Below, one piece after another: positions 5,779 through 14,340 of a stretch of 35,207 nucleotides of DNA. The position numbers and the translations under genes were made by a program. The DNA is from an uncultured Chloroflexota bacterium (lineage in GTDB: Bacteria; Chloroflexota; Anaerolineae; Anaerolineales; Villigracilaceae): the NCBI GenBank assembly GCA_903914955.1, contig CAIWRB010000334.1, positions 1 through 35,207 of the forward strand, given 5' to 3'. The first letter of the stretch is position 1, and each line of letters starts with the position of its first letter. The notes beneath the pieces were generated by a model. The model saw nothing but the letters and a program-made list of their open reading frames with translations. It did no database searches and had not been told where the DNA came from.

Positions 5779-6498
5779 TTATGTCTTACCCCAGGCAAAA
5801 TAAGTAGGAATCTGTAAGGTACGTTGTCCATGCCTACGCGCTATTTCGTCAATATCTTTCATTTTCTGGATTTCCTCACCAGGAATACTCCCACCCAAAT
5901 CGGCTTGTATCACTGTCCATTCATTTTCCCAATCTTCAGAAGTGCGGATGACTGCCTGGCTTTGAATGGGACCTGTTTCTACAATATGTATCCCAGCTTG
6001 AAAGAAAGTCTCTGCGAGTTGTGCGCCAAAAGACGGGTTTGCTCCCTGCCGCGTTAATGACGTTGTTTGCCATTTTCCAAGAGTTTTAAGCGCCTCTGGC
6101 TCATCCACACGTTGACTATAATCCGGTTCAGCGAGAGCCAGTACAGCATGACTCACACGCGCCATTTCATGAACAACTTGCAATGGATCATTCACCCAAA
6201 GCAAAAGAAAATGACAATATGCAATATCAAAATATTTATCCGGATATGGCAGATGATGCCCATCGCCGCGCGCTAGTAAAACTACAGGCGCGTTGATTTT
6301 GCATTCAGCGAGCGCGGCAGGGTCAAGGTCAAGACCATGCAGCGCGGAAGGTGTATTTAGCTCGCGCAAGATCGCGCCAGTGCCGCATCCAACTTCAAGA
6401 ATACGCTTTGCCTTTGTCAATCCCGCCTGTTCAAATAGATAGATTCTTAATTCGCGAGTCCACGCGGCTTGCTGAAGATAACGCGAATGCCAGTTCAT
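5779..6498 (-). CDS. class I SAM-dependent methyltransferase
   Basis: A 239-residue protein with the Rossmann SAM-binding motif I, Ile-Leu-Glu-Val-Gly-Cys-Gly-Thr-Gly, at residues 33-41. The acidic second strand (Gly-Leu-Asp-Leu-Asp-Pro) is near residue 55, then Ala-Arg-Gly-Asp-Gly-His-His-Leu-Pro-Tyr-Pro and Phe-Asp-Ile-Ala-Tyr-Cys-His-Phe. This is the Methyltransf_11/25 type that methylates small molecules. The substrate is unknown. It starts within the last four bases of the upstream phosphatase gene (ATGA overlap), showing translational coupling. Confidence 0.85.
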   Translation of the reverse strand: MNWHSRYLQQAAWTRELRIYLFEQAGLTKAKRILEVGCGTGAILRELNTPSALHGLDLDPAALAECKINAPVVLLARGDGHHLPYPDKYFDIAYCHFLLLWVNDPLQVVHEMARVSHAVLALAEPDYSQRVDEPEALKTLGKWQTTSLTRQGANPSFGAQLAETFFQAGIHIVETGPIQSQAVIRTSEDWENEWTVIQADLGGSIPGEEIQKMKDIDEIARRHGQRTLQIPTYFAWGKT

Positions 6499-7058
6499 CC
6501 TTCACAAAATTTCTGATTATTTTTATACAAGGTGTCAGGCGCTTCCCACCAATTAAGAATAAACTCGATTTGTTCCTTACTTTCCGGCGAATGCGGATAA
6601 TAAGAATTGGCGGGTCTGGTTTTAAATAACTTATCAACTTGCTTCACGGCTTGTTCATTCGTAGCGCCATGCCTCACAAGATAACAACCCACGACGATGC
6701 CCGTACGTCCAATTCCGCCCCAACAATGAACGTAAACACAACGTCCGTTATCAATGGCATCATCGATGGTGTTGAGAATAGACGTCATTATTTCGGTCGA
6801 AGGGATGCTGTGATCACGAACGGCAAATCGCTGATAGGACACGTTGATATGATAAATTTGCGCCTGTTCTATTAGCATGGATTCATAAGAAACAAGTTCA
6901 TGTGGTTGCGTAAGATCAATAAAGGTGTTAATTCCAGCTTCGAGAAACATATCCATGCGTTGACGCGTGGTTTCAGAACCATGACTGCCTGGATATTCTC
7001 CAGCCAGAAATTTGTTTTCTTCAACCCAATAGGATTCAATAATTGGAATTTGAGTCAT
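6495..7058 (-). CDS. dual-specificity / tyrosine phosphatase-like protein
   Basis: The active-site loop His-Cys-Trp-Gly-Gly-Ile-Gly-Arg-Thr-Gly matches the HCx5R(S/T) signature of cysteine-dependent phosphatases, so Cys is the nucleophile and Arg binds phosphate. An upstream Arg-Asp-His-Ser can supply the general acid. The N-terminal Tyr-Trp-Val ... Phe-Leu-Ala-Gly-Glu-Tyr-Pro-Gly motif is typical of the small bacterial DSP-like family. The open frame reaches an ATG at 7097 that would overlap the upstream lipoprotein gene by 22 bases. The ATG at 7058 gives a family-like N-terminus, and neither has a clear ribosome site. The gene is coupled by overlap to the methyltransferase. Confidence 0.8.
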   Translation of the reverse strand: MTQIPIIESYWVEENKFLAGEYPGSHGSETTRQRMDMFLEAGINTFIDLTQPHELVSYESMLIEQAQIYHINVSYQRFAVRDHSIPSTEIMTSILNTIDDAIDNGRCVYVHCWGGIGRTGIVVGCYLVRHGATNEQAVKQVDKLFKTRPANSYYPHSPESKEQIEFILNWWEAPDTLYKNNQKFCEG

Positions 7059-7075
7059 TTGAATAATAAGTTTAT

Positions 7076-8164
7076 TTATCCCGGGAAGACCACGCATAAA
7101 TTGCCGATGATCTTTGTACGCAAGTCAACGAGTTCAGGATAATTATAAAAGAAGAGTATTTTTTGTTCAGCAATCGTATCACCCACAGGTTTTTCGCCAA
7201 AGATAAAGAACGAGAAGGCTTCCGCAATATCTTCCGCGGGATGCGTGGCTGAGTAATCAGTTACAAACTGATCTTGATATTTGTAATAAAATTTGTCAAG
7301 CTGTTCGTAATAAATATCGTCATTTTCTTCGAGATCGATTTTGTTCCATTCACCATAAATATTTACCCAGAATTGATCGTAATATTGATTTATGTATGAG
7401 TCGCTGTTGGCACAACCCTCGCCGGGGAAGAAGTTGGAACAAGCGGATACTTCATTTAGATAAATGTCATTATTTTCAGGATCGTAAAAAATGGCTTCGC
7501 TTGGCGGTACTTGATCCGAGCCAAGTGTCAGCAAGTGGGCAAATTCGTGGACTAAGGTGTAGCTGAGGTAGTAATAATCCTGCGAATCGGCAATGTCCAC
7601 TTCCAATCCCCAGAGAGCTGGGTCGTCATTGGTTTGAGCGACAGCAGCGAGCACATTATCCCGTCCATCGGTCATAACGGAAAATTCTGCAAGACTCTTA
7701 CGGCTTTCGAGCGGAATGAGAGCCGCAAAATAACCCCATAGCTTTTGATGCGTGGCAGTATCATTCTGTTCATCCTGTAGATCAGACGGGACGCTCTCAA
7801 AGCTGGGGTTGTTGATCTCGTTACCTGAAATATAATAGGTCACAATGTAAGTGATGTTATCTTCGCTACGACTACCGAAATCCATGGTTTCAGCATCGCC
7901 CTCCACGATCATAGGTGAATTCGCTTCGATGATCCGATCTGTGATTACGGGACAAGAGGCAATTTCATCTGGTATCTCGGTTGGGATTACGGTTGGAATT
8001 ACAGTAGGAGCTTCTGCGGGAAGTTCTGTGACAAAGACTTGGGTAACTGCGGGAGGCTCAGGAACATCAGAAATAGCTGTTGCTGGTTTGCCCATCAAGG
8101 TGACACAGGCCAATGACGATAAGAGAATTATAAAAACAGCAAGGAGTATTTTTATACGCAGCAT
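7076..8164 (-). CDS. lipoprotein with HExxH metallopeptidase motif
   Basis: A start at ATG 8164 (AAGGA seven bases upstream) gives 362 residues beginning MLRIKILLAVFIILLSSLAC, a lipoprotein signal peptide ending in lipobox Ser-Leu-Ala-Cys. The longer open frame to 8278 would bury this signal and crosses a terminator, so it is rejected. A Thr/Pro/Val-rich linker follows (about 25-60), then a domain with Leu-Val-His-Glu-Phe-Ala-His, a zinc-protease-like HExxH motif. The distal part is rich in Asp, Glu, Tyr and Asn. It is probably anchored on the outside of the membrane. The specific family and substrate are unknown; the peptidase role is inferred from the motif. Confidence 0.75.
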   Translation of the reverse strand: MLRIKILLAVFIILLSSLACVTLMGKPATAISDVPEPPAVTQVFVTELPAEAPTVIPTVIPTEIPDEIASCPVITDRIIEANSPMIVEGDAETMDFGSRSEDNITYIVTYYISGNEINNPSFESVPSDLQDEQNDTATHQKLWGYFAALIPLESRKSLAEFSVMTDGRDNVLAAVAQTNDDPALWGLEVDIADSQDYYYLSYTLVHEFAHLLTLGSDQVPPSEAIFYDPENNDIYLNEVSACSNFFPGEGCANSDSYINQYYDQFWVNIYGEWNKIDLEENDDIYYEQLDKFYYKYQDQFVTDYSATHPAEDIAEAFSFFIFGEKPVGDTIAEQKILFFYNYPELVDLRTKIIGNLCVVFPG

Positions 8165-8210
8165 GATCCATCCTTTTAAAGACTTGGCAAGGATACCATA
8201 ACAACTGAAT

Positions 8211-8252
8211 AAAAAAAATATTCTGCCGGTTACTGGGCAGAATATTTTTTTT
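8211..8252. terminator. bidirectional Rho-independent terminator
   Basis: A perfect 17-base stem (8211-8227 with 8236-8252) and an eight-base loop, carrying an A8 run on one side and a T8 run on the other. It sits between the end of the radical SAM-like operon (stop codon at 8253-8255) and the start of the lipoprotein gene. It terminates the 8-14 kb operon on the minus strand. Confidence 0.9.
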
Positions 8253-9389
8253 CTACTTGAATATCTTTTCCCAATCATCCTTTAAGAAATTGCCGAGAAC
8301 TTTATCTGCTTCACCTTGTGCGGGAAGAACATCCCCGTCAGGCTCAACGTACATCCAGGTTTTGCCTGCGCCTGCAGGGACATCGTCATCCGCTGTTTCG
8401 ATCATTACAGGATTTGACGCGGAATACGGCACAGGCAGATCCCAGCGAATCGTCAGGCGTAGGGAATTTGCCACACTTTGCAATTCCAGCATTTCATCGA
8501 GCAAGTCATTACTTGAGGTGCTTAGGGAAATATTTTCGACAGCCAGATTCGCGAGCTTATGCAGGATGGTTTTGGCTTCATTCACGTTTCCATTATTGAG
8601 TGTGAAATGAACGGTTAGAAAGAGGTCTTGCGGGACGATGGTTTCAATCGCTTTCCATGAACGTGGTTCATCCGGCTGCAGGATAACCATGACATGATCC
8701 AGGCCTGTTTGCAGTAGAAGTTCAAGATAATCCTTGTCGGCGAGTTTCAAGCCATCGGTCAATAAGCCGCAGACTTGTCCATTTTTTTCGGCGTGAGCAA
8801 TGAGTTGTGGAAGATCTTCGCGTAAGGTCGCTTCGCCGCCAGTGAAAATGATGTGAGGAATTCCCGCCTGCCAGGCCTTGTCCATGATGATCTGCCATTC
8901 TTCGGTGCTGAGTTCGCGGTCAACCCGCTTGACAGGTGCGTAGTTAGCCTGAGCGTTGGCAGGAAGTTTGTAGGTGATGGCGCAGTCGAGCCGCAGCGTG
9001 GAATCTGTCGAATGAGGCTGGGCCCGCTCAAAGTTTAGGAAAGAGACGGGATCCAGATCAGGCGTGGAGATCAGGGTCTGGATCTGATCCGCGAAGTTTG
9101 AAAAATCTGCCAGCGCAGTTTTCATATCCACACGATAACGCGCGGAAATTTGTTTCGCGGCTTCTTCAGGCGCTGTGCCTTTGATGAAGTGAAAGGCGCA
9201 TTCGGCGGCGGTGGGGTTAAGCTGCATGACCGTGGACGCATTGAGGATAAGCAGACCCCTTCCATCCTTTTGAAGACGCAGGTGGAGGCGATAAGGTTTT
9301 TCATCTTCTGCGGCTTGCATGTGATACGTGCCAATCGGGAGCGCTTGCACTTTTGAAAAATGATCCGAAATGCGGTTGAGCAGGTTCAT
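8253..9389 (-). CDS. RRE (PqqD-like) plus radical SAM-fold pseudoenzyme lacking all cluster cysteines
   Basis: A 378-residue paralogue of the radical SAM enzyme at 10845-12200, aligning with it almost without gaps. Residues about 30-105 form the same PqqD/RRE-like peptide-binding domain. The barrel follows, with Pro-His-Ile-Ile-Phe-Thr-Gly-Gly-Glu-Ala-Thr-Leu-Arg near 175-190 nearly identical to the partner. The CxxxCxxC positions are Leu142, Ala146 and Asn149 (YKLPANAQANY replaces YRCNNDCAHCY). The SPASM part is cut short at Asp-Val-Leu-Pro-Ala-Gln, where the partner has Cys. Only three cysteines remain, none at a cluster position. The frame is intact, so it is likely a maintained non-catalytic partner rather than decay. 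It is the last gene of the operon and ends at a terminator. Confidence 0.85.
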   Translation of the reverse strand: MNLLNRISDHFSKVQALPIGTYHMQAAEDEKPYRLHLRLQKDGRGLLILNASTVMQLNPTAAECAFHFIKGTAPEEAAKQISARYRVDMKTALADFSNFADQIQTLISTPDLDPVSFLNFERAQPHSTDSTLRLDCAITYKLPANAQANYAPVKRVDRELSTEEWQIIMDKAWQAGIPHIIFTGGEATLREDLPQLIAHAEKNGQVCGLLTDGLKLADKDYLELLLQTGLDHVMVILQPDEPRSWKAIETIVPQDLFLTVHFTLNNGNVNEAKTILHKLANLAVENISLSTSSNDLLDEMLELQSVANSLRLTIRWDLPVPYSASNPVMIETADDDVPAGAGKTWMYVEPDGDVLPAQGEADKVLGNFLKDDWEKIFK

Positions 9390-9398
9390 AAAAATCTC

Positions 9399-10403
9399 CT
9401 ATTTTTTAATCAGACCCAGATCTACAAAGGTAAGGTAAATGTAGCCGATCAGCATGAGCGCCCAGGCCAGCATTTCGATCCTTGCCCAAACAGTTTCCAA
9501 CGAGAGCGAGAAATTATCCTTGATGGTTTGGACGATGCCTTCGAGATTATTGAGTTTATTCTTTAGATTCTCTTTCCAATCTTTAAGATAGAACTCGCTT
9601 TGGATGGCTTCGTAAAGTTTTGCAGTATACCAATCACCGATCAGGAGCAGGTTTTGCTCGGCGCGTTCAAAGTCAAGCATGACTTCGAGTTTGTGTTCCG
9701 CAATCTGGCGAATGACGCCTCTGGTTGGGCGTGGACGGCGTTTGTTTTCAAAGAAAGTGGCGCTGATCTTGTCGAGCATGGCGTCGATGGATTGGTCCAA
9801 CATGCGATAGCGTAGTAGTTGATAGTTGCCAATTTTCAGCAGGGCAATGTCGGATTGGTAATCTTCGTTGGGCGCGATGATGACTGCGCCTTCCCAATCG
9901 ACGAGAGTGAGTTCCGCTGCGGAGTAGCGCGTGCGTGATGCGAGAATCTCATTAAGTTCCTCTTTATCAAACACTTCACGTTGAGAGCGGATGAAATTTG
10001 CAAGATCGGTGGAGTTCTTTTCTATCCATTTATCGGGCGACGGTTTGGCTTGTTGTACCAGCAGAATAGTGTATTCTTCGAATAATCCATTTTGACGATA
10101 TTCGGCTGGGATGAATTTGCTTTCGAGGGCGTTTTGAATTTTAGCGCGTTCCTGCAGGACTGAGGCGGCAAATGGCTCTTTCAATTCAAAGCGACATTCG
10201 ACCATTTGCACACGTCCATCATAGCGCTGACGAATCACCAATACCGCGTGGCCTTCGATCAGCACGGTTTCTTCACCAAGCGTGACGAGGTCAATATCGA
10301 TCGGCTGAAAATAGGGCGCGTCTTTCAATCCCTTAAATGGTTCAGGGACTGGGGCTTTGCCATCGTCAGCATCGGGGAAGGCGATCAGGTAGCAGATTTC
10401 CAT
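9399..10403 (-). CDS. unknown protein with C-terminal membrane anchor
   Basis: A 334-residue protein with no signal peptide. Residues about 1-220 are a soluble mixed alpha/beta region. Residues about 255-300 form amphipathic helices (Phe-Tyr-Leu-Lys-Asp-Trp ... Asn-Lys-Leu-Asn-Asn-Leu-Glu-Gly-Ile). One membrane span near the end (Met-Leu-Ala-Trp-Ala-Leu-Met-Leu-Ile-Gly-Tyr-Ile-Tyr-Leu) precedes a short tail. The layout, with a cytoplasmic body, a helical stalk and a terminal membrane span, recalls RMD1/DUF155 or CorA-like proteins, but I cannot show homology. It lies nine bases upstream of the pseudo-radical SAM gene, so it is probably part of the same system and may hold it at the membrane. 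Confidence 0.65.
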   Translation of the reverse strand: MEICYLIAFPDADDGKAPVPEPFKGLKDAPYFQPIDIDLVTLGEETVLIEGHAVLVIRQRYDGRVQMVECRFELKEPFAASVLQERAKIQNALESKFIPAEYRQNGLFEEYTILLVQQAKPSPDKWIEKNSTDLANFIRSQREVFDKEELNEILASRTRYSAAELTLVDWEGAVIIAPNEDYQSDIALLKIGNYQLLRYRMLDQSIDAMLDKISATFFENKRRPRPTRGVIRQIAEHKLEVMLDFERAEQNLLLIGDWYTAKLYEAIQSEFYLKDWKENLKNKLNNLEGIVQTIKDNFSLSLETVWARIEMLAWALMLIGYIYLTFVDLGLIKK

Positions 10404-10456: not shown

Positions 10457-10798
10457 TTATGTGCGAATGAAGTGCGGCATTTCCAATGGGATTTCGAGGG
10501 AGAGTTCCACGAAACCTGCGTACAAACCCTCTTTATACCATGGTGATTGATAGACGATTTTCTTCACGCCGTTCTTTTCGATAGTGTAAACATTTTTAAT
10601 TTTCGCGGCCAACAGTCTTTCTGTTTTTTCGCGCGCGGAGTCAGGATGGCAAGCCAACATATTCGAGCCGATCAGTTTGTATCCGCCATCCTTCTCGAAT
10701 GTTTTGGCGGCTTTGTCATTCATTTCAAGGATGACTCCTTCTTCATCACAGACAGTGATTGCGGCGGGGAATTCTTTGATCCATGCATGTTCGTTCAT
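10457..10798 (-). CDS. stand-alone PAS domain protein
   Basis: 113 residues that make up one PAS domain: Ala-Ile-Thr-Val-Cys-Asp-Glu-Glu-Gly-Val-Ile-Leu-Glu-Met-Asn-Asp-Lys-Ala-Ala, then Leu-Ile-Gly-Ser-Asn-Met-Leu-Ala-Cys-His-Pro, and a C-terminal beta sheet (Tyr-Gln-Ser-Pro-Trp-Tyr-Lys ... Gly-Phe-Val-Glu-Leu-Ser). The Asn-x-x-x-Cys-His-Pro segment is typical of DUF438-associated and related heme- or redox-sensing PAS proteins. No output domain is attached, so it must act by binding another protein. It sits between the radical SAM gene and the membrane-anchored gene and may sense redox state or a ligand for this system. Confidence 0.8.
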   Translation of the reverse strand: MNEHAWIKEFPAAITVCDEEGVILEMNDKAAKTFEKDGGYKLIGSNMLACHPDSAREKTERLLAAKIKNVYTIEKNGVKKIVYQSPWYKEGLYAGFVELSLEIPLEMPHFIRT

Positions 10799-10844: not shown

Positions 10845-12200
10845 TTAACTTGTGACTTGCAAACCTTCAACTTGAAACTGTAACGGACATCCGCCGCCAC
10901 ATTCAGAAACAACAGGACAACCCTCGCACTTGGACGGGAGACCCTGGCGGTCGCGTAATTTTGTGGACAATTTATGATTCCAAATCGAATCCCATGAGTC
11001 AGTGAGCATGTTGCCAAGTGGTTGGTAATATGATTGGCACGGCAACACGTCACCATTTGATTCGATGCACATACTGTATAACGCGGCGGTACAACCCTTC
11101 ACACCAAGATTATTCGCGGTCGGGTCAAATTCACAATATTGAGTCGGCGTATACCAGATGAGCTTTTGTCCACGCTCAGCGGTCTTGCGTGTGGCAATGT
11201 CGAGGATGGGTTGCAATTCATTTTCGCGCAGGCCGGTGCCAACGGTCAAGCCATTGCCCGAATAGATCAAGGCATTCAAGCCGATGGTCGGCACACCGAT
11301 CTCCGCTAAGAAATCCAATGTCTCGGGAATCTTATAGAAATTATTTCGCAGCATCGTTGTGTTGGTCATTACATAAAGCTTACTGTTCAGCGCGTTCTTC
11401 AATCCCTGGATCGTTTGCTTGAACGCGCCTTTGGCTTGCATCATTTCATCGTGGATATTTTCATCCCAAGATTCAACTGTGACTTGAACATGATCAAGCC
11501 CCGCATCGACCAGAGTTTCCACATATTTTTCATCGGATAAACGACGGGCGTTCGTGTTCAGCCCTGTGATCTGGCCGTTGCTTTCTGCATGTCGGATCAA
11601 TTCTGGCAGATCGTTGCGCAAGGTCGCCTCTCCGCCAGTAAAGATGATGTGCGGAACACCGAGAGCCCAAAGCTGGTCCATGATCTTGAACCATTGATCA
11701 GTTGTGAGTTCTGGGAAATTCCGTTCACGGGCATTGTAGCAATGCGCGCAATCGTTATTGCAGCGATAGGTGACAGCCAAATCCATGCGATAAGGCGCGG
11801 AAGGACGCGCGCTAAACGGCATGATCGATTCAAGATCGAGCTCGTGGATGGGACAGGCGCCATCAGGGCGAAGAAGTTCAGAAAGCTGAAAGCGAAAGGC
11901 TGAAAGATCGGTGATTGCTTGAGAACTATTGACGCGATATTGTTTCGTGATCAAAGAGATGATTTCCTTTTCCTGCTTCTCTTCAAGAATCAGATAAGCC
12001 ATCAACGCGGCGGTTGGATTCAGGTGCATGATACGGTTTGCATTGACGATCAGCGTGCCAGTACCATCAGTATCGATCCGCAAATGGATGCGTGATTTTT
12101 CCTGCCCGGTCTCGCGCGTGAAGTGATAAAGGCCAGCCGATAGACCGCTGACCGTGGATGATAGTTGAAACACATTTTTTAGCGTGTCAAATAAAGTCAT
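10845..12200 (-). CDS. RRE-containing radical SAM/SPASM peptide-modifying enzyme
   Basis: About 451 residues. The N-terminal 110 form a PqqD-like RiPP recognition element. The radical SAM cluster motif CNNDCAHC is at about residues 148-155 and the SAM-binding Gly-Gly-Glu-Ala-Thr-Leu-Arg at about 190-196. A C-terminal SPASM domain carries cysteines in Gly-Cys-Thr-Ala, Ser-Met-Cys-Ile, Leu-Pro-Cys-Gln, and CEGCPVVSECGGGC, enough for two auxiliary 4Fe-4S clusters. RRE-SPASM enzymes modify ribosomally made peptides, typically at cysteine or nearby residues. The gene directly follows (23 bases) the membrane protein with a Cys-Ala repeat tail, the natural candidate substrate. Of two adjacent ATGs, the second (12200) has the better distance to GAGG; 12203 is the alternative. 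Confidence 0.92.
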   Translation of the reverse strand: MTLFDTLKNVFQLSSTVSGLSAGLYHFTRETGQEKSRIHLRIDTDGTGTLIVNANRIMHLNPTAALMAYLILEEKQEKEIISLITKQYRVNSSQAITDLSAFRFQLSELLRPDGACPIHELDLESIMPFSARPSAPYRMDLAVTYRCNNDCAHCYNARERNFPELTTDQWFKIMDQLWALGVPHIIFTGGEATLRNDLPELIRHAESNGQITGLNTNARRLSDEKYVETLVDAGLDHVQVTVESWDENIHDEMMQAKGAFKQTIQGLKNALNSKLYVMTNTTMLRNNFYKIPETLDFLAEIGVPTIGLNALIYSGNGLTVGTGLRENELQPILDIATRKTAERGQKLIWYTPTQYCEFDPTANNLGVKGCTAALYSMCIESNGDVLPCQSYYQPLGNMLTDSWDSIWNHKLSTKLRDRQGLPSKCEGCPVVSECGGGCPLQFQVEGLQVTS

Positions 12201-12225
12201 CATCTACCTCTAATCGGAAATCAAT

Positions 12226-13881
12226 TTATCTTCCGCCGCCAGCACAGGCGCAGGCGCAACCGGCACATGCACACGCGCACGCACATCCGCCGCCACTGCG
12301 GCCGCTGCCTCCACTTGAAGTTGACTTGGGCGGAGGATTGGTCACGCCCGTGATTTTTTCAGTGAATGTGTTGACGTTGCCAATAACTTTCGAAGAGAAA
12401 GTCTGCACACCTGTTACCATTGATGCTGCAAAGTCTGCACCGGGTAGCGCGGTTCTACCAGAAGAGGAGCCCGGCATGGTTGACGGAAGCCCGCCACCAG
12501 CCGAGGATTGATGCGGATGATAGCCCGGGTCAAATCTTCCCCACCACATCGGCATATAGACGGGTCCAACGCGCCGCGTGCGGTTATCGTAATCCTTATC
12601 GAGCATCGTCCATTCCAATGATTCATCAAATTTCTGACTTTTGACTTCGGGTGTGTCAGCGGCTTCAATTTGCTGCCACGCTTTTTCCATGATAGATTTG
12701 TAATAATCCAAAGTTTCCTTGCGGCTGAACCCGCGCATTTTTTCGGAGACAGATTTAACAAGTTTCACCATGGTTTCCTGCAGCGCGGCCTGACGTTCTT
12801 TCGCGTTGGCCACTTTGAAGACTCTTAGAAAATCCAATTCATATTCATGTAAACCATCCGACAAGATCGGAGCGGATTTAATCTCAAGGGGATCGCGCGT
12901 GATCACTTCAGCGGCATTCTTCTTGAGCGTGCCGAACAAGATCATGGTCATTACTTTATCAAGCGGTTCTTCCATTAAGATCGCGGCTTCAACGGCGGTA
13001 AGTCCACGTTTAATACCATGACCTTCAATTGAAACCTTGGGCGGCAAATATTGCATCTTGCGTCGTTTGCCTTGCACTGCGGCTATGATAGGCATGCCAA
13101 CAAACATGAACGCGAAGATGCCGCAAAAAAGTAAAGGGCCCAGGCTGCCAATGATTCCAGCGATCAGGCTCGCGAAGTCAAAAGGAGGCGCGGTGACTAT
13201 GGCAGTTTCTGGTATATAGGATTTAGGAAATGAGGCGCCGAACGTATATTGCGTGGAACCACTGGCTGATGAATTGTTCCAGAGGTAGGTGACGCGTCCC
13301 TGAGCGTCGATGCCTGTTTGCGGTTCTGACGGAAATCCTGACGGGGCAGAGTGCCAGCGCGGTTCACTCGGCTGAACACCCGGAGGCATGTGATAAACAA
13401 CCGTTAGATCAGTGTTTCCATTTACAAATTGGGAACCAAACCAGTTCGGAGAGAAGACGGCGCTGGCGTAAGCCTGATCATTGTCATCTGGATATATAAC
13501 TCCTTCCACTTTGCCGACGATAACATGAACAGTTCCGCTTTGACCGGGCTGAATGGCAAACGATCCCATATCAACAGAGAAGCCTGAACCGCCTTCGCCT
13601 TGAAAATCGGAGGAAATCGAAAGCGAGTTACCGTTCATGTCTGCTGACGTGCCCGAAAATTGACCGTTGGGAACGCCGACATCCACGAAATCAACGACAT
13701 GTCCGCTGGATGAATTTGTGAATGTGAGTTGATAATCCAGCGCCAGTGTGCCGTCTGCATTCCAAAATACATTCACGATCTCTTTATCTAGGCTGAATGA
13801 ATAGGATTGAGCCCCAACAGGGATGACAATGCCCAAAGCTAGAATGAGTACAAAGGCAATGATTAGTAATCTTCGTTTCAT
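12226..13881 (-). CDS. DUF2207-like membrane protein with C-terminal Cys-Ala repeat tail
   Basis: A start at ATG 13881 is chosen for its AAGGAG site; the frame opens further to 13905 without one. The 551-residue protein has a signal peptide (MKRRLLIIAFVLILALGIV), an extracytoplasmic beta-rich domain (about 25-220), and a membrane span near 235-267. A cytoplasmic region follows, beginning Tyr-Leu-Pro-Pro-Lys as in DUF2207 proteins, then a Gly/Ser/Pro-rich linker. The end is GGGCACACACAGCACACAGGGR, with seven cysteines alternating with alanine (12229-12294). Synonymous codons vary along the repeat (TGT/TGC, GCG/GCA/GCC/GCT), so it is kept at protein level. By topology the tail faces the cytoplasm, where the adjacent RRE-radical SAM enzyme could modify it. 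Confidence 0.85.
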   Translation of the reverse strand: MKRRLLIIAFVLILALGIVIPVGAQSYSFSLDKEIVNVFWNADGTLALDYQLTFTNSSSGHVVDFVDVGVPNGQFSGTSADMNGNSLSISSDFQGEGGSGFSVDMGSFAIQPGQSGTVHVIVGKVEGVIYPDDNDQAYASAVFSPNWFGSQFVNGNTDLTVVYHMPPGVQPSEPRWHSAPSGFPSEPQTGIDAQGRVTYLWNNSSASGSTQYTFGASFPKSYIPETAIVTAPPFDFASLIAGIIGSLGPLLFCGIFAFMFVGMPIIAAVQGKRRKMQYLPPKVSIEGHGIKRGLTAVEAAILMEEPLDKVMTMILFGTLKKNAAEVITRDPLEIKSAPILSDGLHEYELDFLRVFKVANAKERQAALQETMVKLVKSVSEKMRGFSRKETLDYYKSIMEKAWQQIEAADTPEVKSQKFDESLEWTMLDKDYDNRTRRVGPVYMPMWWGRFDPGYHPHQSSAGGGLPSTMPGSSSGRTALPGADFAASMVTGVQTFSSKVIGNVNTFTEKITGVTNPPPKSTSSGGSGRSGGGCACACACAGCACACAGGGR

Positions 13882-13941: not shown

Positions 13942-14340
13942 CTACCACTTCGGTTCTTCGGTGAGTTGATAAATGGTATGGCAATATGGACAGTTGACCA
14001 TCGGTGCGCCATTGGCAAGTGTGATGTCTTTTGCGCTCAATGTGCCCCCGCAGGATTTGCATTTCACTTGTTCGATCTTTGTTTCGCCAGGCAGGTCCAC
14101 TTTCATAGTGACTTGCTGAATCACTTCGGTCTTTGTCCCGCGCATGGCGGCAATGACCATGCCCGCACCGCCGGCAAAAAATAAAATGCCCACGCATCCG
14201 AAGCCGAGTCCAAAACTCAGCCATGAGGAACTTCCCTGCGATGATGTGGAGCCAACGACACTCAATGCTCCATAGCCAACGAGACACAGGCCGATCAAAA
14301 ATAATATACCTGCGCCAATATAAAGAACTGTTTTATTCAT
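13942..14340 (-). CDS. two-span membrane protein with C-terminal zinc ribbon
   Basis: A 132-residue protein with a GAGGAG site before the ATG. Two hydrophobic segments (about 6-28 and 44-66) are joined by a Ser/Gly loop. The cytoplasmic end has CKSCGG at about 94-99 and CPYC at about 118-121, a zinc ribbon. It is the first gene of the operon that contains the Cys-Ala-tailed protein and the radical SAM enzymes, 60 bases upstream of the former. It could serve as a membrane partner or assembly factor. No specific family is recognised. Confidence 0.75.
   Translation of the reverse strand: MNKTVLYIGAGILFLIGLCLVGYGALSVVGSTSSQGSSSWLSFGLGFGCVGILFFAGGAGMVIAAMRGTKTEVIQQVTMKVDLPGETKIEQVKCKSCGGTLSAKDITLANGAPMVNCPYCHTIYQLTEEPKW

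Follow-up and report, generated by a model that had tools for sequence, protein, structure and literature searches.

The window analysed here, a stretch of 35,207 nucleotides from an uncultured Chloroflexota bacterium, raises the question of why a gene for a large membrane protein that ends in a Cys-Ala repeat adjoins a gene for a radical SAM/SPASM enzyme that carries an RRE. The evidence set out below makes it likely that the two genes form a protein-modification system, in which the tail is modified in place on the membrane protein by the adjoining enzyme; that the tail is the substrate of this enzyme is highly probable. The relevant features, in minus-strand order, are the following:

13942-14340, minus strand: small membrane protein with CxxC pairs, zinc-ribbon-like; Pfam matches below cut-offs
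12226-13881, minus strand: tail protein, the proposed substrate; 551 amino acids, ATG at 13881
12229-12294, minus strand: the tail, GGGCACACACAGCACACAGGGR, residues 530-551 of the tail protein
10845-12203, minus strand: radical SAM/SPASM enzyme with an N-terminal PqqD-like RRE, the proposed maturase
10457-10798, minus strand: PAS-like short protein; below cut-offs; 10 loci; outside the core
9399-10403, minus strand: membrane protein with no Pfam match, presumably resembling RMND1/DUF155; 14 loci; outside the core
8253-9389, minus strand: degenerate radical SAM homolog; PqqD above cut-off (RRE kept), CxxxCxxC lost
7076-8278, minus strand: HExxH metallopeptidase-like protein with a lipoprotein-like start; below cut-offs; 9 loci; outside the core
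6495-7097, minus strand: dual-specificity-phosphatase-like protein
5779-6498, minus strand: class I SAM methyltransferase

The tail protein comprises a signal peptide, a ribophorin-I/M1-like ectodomain (residues ~25-221), one membrane span (~248-271) and a cytosolic domain, followed by a Gly/Ser/Pro linker and then by the Cys-Ala tail. Translation of the open reading frame, which ends in ...SGGSGRSGGGCACACACAGCACACAGGGR, confirmed exactly the GGG-[Cys-Ala repeat]-GGGR end with seven cysteines that the earlier note had described: the seven cysteines, from residue 533 to residue 546, alternate with alanine, and one glycine follows the fourth Cys-Ala unit. Hydrophobic stretches are present at residues 1-29 and 234-271, and the second is followed by KRRK, which would place the tail on the inner side. 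This prediction comes from hydropathy and not from a dedicated topology program, and it agrees with the cytoplasmic tail that had been claimed from a signal peptide and one span. The label "DUF2207-like" was right in kind and weak by sequence, the window protein having no Pfam (PF09972 included) or NCBIfam match at E<=0.1; in two Clostridia relatives PF09972 scored 18.3 and 14.3 bits, short of its cut-off of 24.4. The best solved-structure matches of the ectodomain (25-221) are an oligosaccharyltransferase chain (Z 16.8, 183 residues), which we take to be Ost1/ribophorin I, and the N domains of M1 peptidases. Asgard carriers share the M1-like ectodomain, as judged by homology. The tail itself is left unpredicted by AlphaFold, with a pLDDT under 50 at residues 520-545.

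Conservation is stricter in the tail than in the folded domains: among 36 aligned bacterial and archaeal proteins with a mean column identity of 28%, 14 columns are invariant, namely Y278, P444 and 12 columns in the tail. Furthermore, 82 tails with identical last 17 residues (a set in which some loci represent the same genome twice) go back to 74 distinct DNA sequences, in which every position uses at least two synonymous codons. Thus the tail is kept as protein, and the synonymous codon drift bears out what had been proposed from the codons of this one repeat; recent DNA slippage is ruled out, because the codons are saturated with synonymous change. Chance low complexity is ruled out as well, since the (CA)3GG codon pattern matched 30 of 400 Chloroflexota genomes and the same pattern reversed matched none. 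Two of these 30 matches (G507 and G310) are due to chance, as is a second match in the window's own genome (G000:C180, L001), which lies in no matching long ORF.

Among 151 related genomes, 99 contain the tail protein, and most full-length matches align to the last residue, even at ~42% identity. At 39 of the 40 loci L039-L078 the family ORF bears the Cys tail, the remaining one (L076) being cut by a contig end. Conversely, a tail-less N-terminal HMM recognises 143 of the 153 CACACAGGG ORFs across all loci collected (duplicates included), and the ten ORFs outside the HMM are seven edge or frameshift fragments and three chance cases (L115, L139, L209). Outside this membrane-protein type the tail is thus almost absent.

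The gene for the enzyme indeed adjoins that for the tail protein; it starts 22 bases past the stop codon of the tail gene, not 23 as the earlier note had it. The assignment as an RRE-radical SAM-SPASM enzyme holds: Radical_SAM (PF04055, E 1.8e-28, with CxxxCxxC at C148, C152 and C155), SPASM (PF13186) and the RRE-type PqqD (PF05402, 25.8 bits, cut-off 23.4) all exceed their Pfam cut-offs in the window enzyme. PqqD was not matched in the archaeal and Clostridia enzymes scanned, and no NCBIfam equivalog reached its cut-off among the best 25 matches per enzyme scanned. Cysteines 148/152/155 as well as C371, C389 and C439 are present in all 51 aligned enzymes, and C426/C429/C435 occur in 31 of the 51 and are absent from the 20 Clostridia-type rows, so that the family probably includes members with two and members with one auxiliary cluster; the window enzyme has no cysteine beyond C439. 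A model of the enzyme (mean pLDDT 88.9) matches SkfB best (Z 27.7, 340 residues, 3.5 A, from 37), followed by SuiB (Z 27.6, 371 residues, from 26), in both cases with the RRE included, and the catalytic part alone matches 5why (Z 25.7, 287 residues), a PDB entry whose title refers to thioether formation in sactipeptides. A role in antiphage defence was considered and rejected, PADLOC reporting nothing beyond generic matches to viperin-like radical SAM proteins and a single weak match to JAB.

If the substrate were a separate small precursor peptide, its gene might be expected near the enzyme. When ORFs of at least 20 amino acids were listed, no plausible one was found in the 22-base and 46-base gaps that flank the enzyme gene, and a small precursor is ruled out for these gaps. 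This result and the linkage counts given next point to the membrane protein's own tail as the candidate substrate, rather than to a small precursor.

The earlier note had named many tails without a nearby RRE-radical SAM gene as evidence that would speak against its proposal; instead, the enzyme was found with the tail nearly throughout. When named genomes were scanned for (CA)3GG, the matches listed comprised at least 118 stretches, of which 87 carry 88 tail ORFs and 31 carry none. The carriers among these listed matches belong to Bacillota (32 loci), Chloroflexota (20), Heimdallarchaeota, Thermoplasmatota, Thermoproteota, Bathyarchaeota, Fermentibacterota, Planctomycetota, Armatimonadota and Aminicenantes, together with single loci of several other groups. 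For 72 of the 88 listed tails an enzyme-HMM match lies inside the stretch, with the enzyme ORF on the same strand in 71 and overlapping or at most 48 bases away in 68; CxxxCxxC is present in 61 of these 72 enzymes, nine being truncated where the stretch ends and two (L095, L177) being degenerate. Most of the 16 listed tails with no enzyme in the stretch lie at its edge, and in 14 of the genomes the enzyme was found elsewhere (E 1e-108 or better); in the two tail genomes L182 and L200 no enzyme was found at E<=1e-30, and these could be incomplete MAGs.

Genome-wide counts gave the same picture. Among the 151 relatives, 97 contain both proteins, 2 the tail protein only, 5 the enzyme only and 47 neither (Fisher 8.6e-31). 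The two genomes with only the tail protein (G086, G147) are 65% and 63% complete; of those with only the enzyme, three (G040, G125, G130) have it at a contig end, one (G082) has a degenerate copy only and one (G035) is unexplained. A homolog labelled as catalytic enzyme is present at 38 of the 40 loci L039-L078, the exceptions being L073, with a degenerate copy only, and L074, where the contig ends. In the 400 Chloroflexota genomes, all 28 true tails have the enzyme on the same contig within 0.7 kb (E 5e-138 or better), and the other genomes with an enzyme are G082, with its degenerate copy, and G275 and G509, with the CHSA tails described below. Lastly, 13 of 150 genomes from the family of a Lachnospiraceae carrier contain the enzyme and all 13 have a Cys tail, 10 with the exact pattern and three with variant tails (CASSCACASSCACACACASSGRAGCS), and the exact pattern was found in none of the 137 enzyme-less genomes of that family.

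It should be noted that the enzyme does not simply follow DUF2207 proteins. Pfam DUF2207 proteins are present in 40 of 201 Chloroflexota genomes, 36 of which lack the enzyme at E<=1e-60. No Cys repeat was found at 30 DUF2207 loci of Chloroflexota, where all ORFs picked have at most 2 cysteines in the last 60 residues; 22 of the 30 have a glycine-rich end, and the remaining 8 picks are in a wrong frame, are truncated or end differently. Therefore, the enzyme goes with the Cys tail, not with the DUF2207 type.

Two variations in the arrangement of proposed substrate and enzyme were observed. Tail proteins of Clostridia (e.g. L140:1581-2867) have no cytosolic domain, and their tail is followed by RAGCSxKDFY and ~20 further residues; this conserved segment of ~25 residues is possibly a recognition follower that replaces the missing upstream segment. 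At L105:3840-6477, L219:3114-5564 and L108:2001-6120, two or three tail-bearing proteins lie beside one enzyme gene, as would be expected if one enzyme serves several substrates.

A second tail alphabet exists. Tail proteins that end in ACHSACHSACHSACVHDACHSAC... occur in G275, in G509 and at a second G160 locus, and a protein search found relatives in 21 of 150 genomes of the class. A (CHSA)n tail is present at all 17 loci examined (14 new and the three initial ones), with the enzyme family adjacent at 16 and the contig ending at the remaining one (L277). The long (CHSA)n tails belong to membrane proteins of the same kind, located at L225:9090-10808, L226:4804-6645, L233:4049-5794 and L269-L282. 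In a tree built from 126 enzymes, those that go with CHSA tails fall into a single group, and the tail labels change 8 times, with 6 as the least possible number, a mean of 55.4 after shuffling and none of 200 shuffles as low, on what is a quick tree with two long branches (L105_844, L157_1123), nine labels set by hand and two rows uncounted. This clustering of labels partly reflects taxonomy. Different enzyme clades go with different tail alphabets, which counts in favour of the two-gene system, and the scope is wider than the earlier note assumed, with at least two tail alphabets and with archaea included.

At five loci (L067:3252-6057, L078:2666-5795, L166:2065-5194, L187:2807-5436, L234:5668-8264), which represent four or five genomes because L078 and L166 are probably from the same one, an active enzyme of the family lies beside a relative of the cytosolic half (the GIKRGLTPPEAA region) that has no Cys tail and ends in TTFYG, ATYFG or ATRSG. 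The enzyme family is therefore not strictly tied to cysteine, and the tail-less partners perhaps offer a different substrate residue. A cytosolic wing of this kind beside a related active enzyme would also be compatible with an enzyme that acts on some other substrate and uses the tail protein as a membrane anchor or docking platform. This is very unlikely, given that the gaps around the enzyme contain no small peptide gene, that only the tail protein and the enzyme are common to all groups of loci, and that the most invariant part of the protein is the tail and not a docking surface.

The other genes of the operon are less constant than these two. When the neighbours at 123 loci were clustered, the tail protein and the enzyme alone were common to all groups, the enzyme being present at 118 of the 123 loci, which were chosen for having both genes, so that counts of these shared genes are not independent evidence. 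The small zinc-ribbon-like CxxC protein lies upstream of the tail gene at 38 of the 123, and the methyltransferase blast cluster, which is a single-linkage cluster and may mix methyltransferases, is represented at 42, including 6 of the 7 "straight CA" archaeal loci. Degenerate copies that keep the RRE and lack CxxxCxxC were found at 38 collected loci and accompany the active enzyme in Anaerolineales; the degenerate homolog of the window is a probable non-catalytic partner.

The zinc-ribbon-like neighbours could be taken to mean that the tail remains unmodified and serves as a multi-thiol ligand for a metal or an Fe-S cluster, which the enzyme uses or fills, or that the enzyme acts on whatever is bound. 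The dense alternating cysteines, and the cysteine plus histidine of (CHSA)n, would suit metal binding. However, a mere ligand leaves two observations unexplained, the RRE-bearing maturase-type enzyme as a constant neighbour (within the limits of the preselected loci) and the joint change of tail alphabet and enzyme clade, and we regard it as unlikely.

Modification of the tail by the adjoining enzyme could proceed as follows. The signal peptide and the single span would leave the C-terminal tail in the cytosol, where the RRE-bearing enzyme would dock on the membrane protein and modify the Cys repeat in place. The RRE may bind a segment near the tail, that is, the conserved helical stretch at ~478-517 in Anaerolineales and perhaps the KDFY follower in Clostridia. 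Sulphur atoms of the cysteines might then be linked to backbone (alpha) carbons of neighbouring residues, which would yield several sactionine-type thioethers; this chemistry is the best guess at present, tentative but quite possibly right. It is suggested by the nearest solved enzymes, which form links of this kind, and by the range of residues next to the cysteines (Ala, His, Ser, Val and Asp), all of which could be accommodated if the bond goes to the backbone. The product would stay anchored as the tail of the membrane protein and would not be released as a peptide. The degenerate homolog that keeps its RRE could present the tail, and the methyltransferase, which is common to several archaeal loci, could act after the enzyme. 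As to function, one can imagine that the tail provides a receptor or scaffold facing the envelope with a rigid cytosolic part that has redox or metal activity, a guess that is rather unlikely to be correct.

Several points count against this candidate modification. No enzyme was found at E<=1e-30 in L182 and L200, the stretches L095 and L177 contain degenerate copies only, five loci have tail-less partners, AlphaFold leaves the tail unpredicted, and taxonomy accounts for part of the label clustering. The system has the appearance of a hitherto undescribed means by which a large protein is chemically altered at its end. On balance, we slightly favour the view that it represents a deeply conserved class of ribosomally encoded, protein-anchored, cross-linked Cys tails, made by one enzyme and one membrane-protein family, with at least two alphabets, in Chloroflexota, Clostridia, Asgard archaea, Thermoplasmatota, Bathyarchaeota and others, and that the modified tail serves generally as a cofactor-like device in the cytosol, as opposed to a natural product that is secreted. 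If this is true, radical SAM chemistry of the RiPP type would operate on the ends of large permanent membrane proteins in bacteria and in archaea, including Asgard archaea, and the modified product would be part of the cell's own machinery. It would also provide a function-independent handle on DUF2207-like proteins and a route to a new multi-cysteine modification, and the two tail alphabets with matching, swappable enzyme clades would be a ready test set. The tryptic peptide of the tail, SGGGCACACACAGCACACAGGGR, is short and has arginine at its end, so that the answer may already lie in proteome data available for carriers. Among the carriers that have been cultured are Ornatilinea apprima (L151) and Gemmiger formicilis (L152, where the stretch contains just a fragment of the tail).

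Among the CC-licensed PMC papers searched, no account of Cys-Ala tails with radical SAM enzymes was found, and the system has to be compared with related ones. It resembles SkfB, SuiB and CteB-type RRE radical SAM/SPASM RiPP maturases in the fold, including the RRE, and in the cluster motif; their substrates are small peptides, whereas the proposed substrate here is the tail of a membrane protein of 320-640 amino acids. The HxsABCD His-Xaa-Ser system of Haft and Basu (2011) reportedly combines a C-terminal repeat of short period with two radical SAM proteins, and it is similar to the present system in both respects. The repeat and the enzymes are different, Hxs models stay far below their cut-offs in the window (HxsC 76.9 bits, cut-off 267.9), and to our knowledge the HxsABCD system includes no DUF2207-like membrane protein.

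TvgA/TvgB, a TVGG-repeat peptide and a radical SAM enzyme with valine cyclopropylglycine chemistry, share with the present system a regular repeat, one radical SAM enzyme and the proposal of many modifications; they differ in that the substrate is a peptide, that cyclopropylglycine is formed from valine and that the repeat is cysteine-free (PMC9062424). DUF2207 proteins (PF09972) such as SMU.243 of S. mutans have an extracellular N-terminal domain, a span and a cytosolic Gly/Ser-rich C-terminal part (PMC10457818). The window protein shares this architecture of extracellular domain, span and cytosolic C-terminal part, but unlike ordinary DUF2207 proteins, most of whose genomes have no enzyme, it carries a Cys tail.

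Closest among published proposals is that of PMC12452194, in which some TIGR04222 membrane proteins with a Cys-rich C-terminus are putative substrates of MNIO enzymes. By extension, the tail might be modified by another oxidative enzyme such as MNIO, with the radical SAM enzyme being incidental, and two CHSA relatives indeed match TIGR04222 weakly in the cytosolic region (22.8 and 16.2 bits, E 6e-5 and 6e-3, cut-off 43); the window protein has no TIGR04222 match at E<=0.1. Nevertheless, this is extremely improbable: the MNIO family is present in 10 of the 151 relatives, lying in the tail-bearing ones on another contig or, in G139, ~38 kb away, and MNIO (PF05114) was not found in the window's genome, for which it is rejected as the tail enzyme. 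G139 also contains an 878-aa ORF (L221:6442-9078) with a DUF2207-like part and an end that by eye looks of the formylglycine-enzyme type, and an MNIO family match lies ~4 kb from it on the same contig. The two-gene system proposed here and the TIGR04222-MNIO system have in common a large membrane protein with an extracytoplasmic part, a low-complexity Cys-rich C-terminus and a linked oxidative RiPP-type enzyme (PMC12452194). Measured against that account, the present system differs in its enzyme, which is radical SAM/SPASM and not MNIO; in its tails, which consist of regular (CA)n or (CHSA)n repeats with hardly any variation, unlike the TIGR04222 ends; in their predicted location, cytosolic and not periplasmic; in its linkage, which is nearly strict, whereas a third of TIGR04222 genomes are without the enzyme; and in its carriers, which include archaea (PMC12452194).
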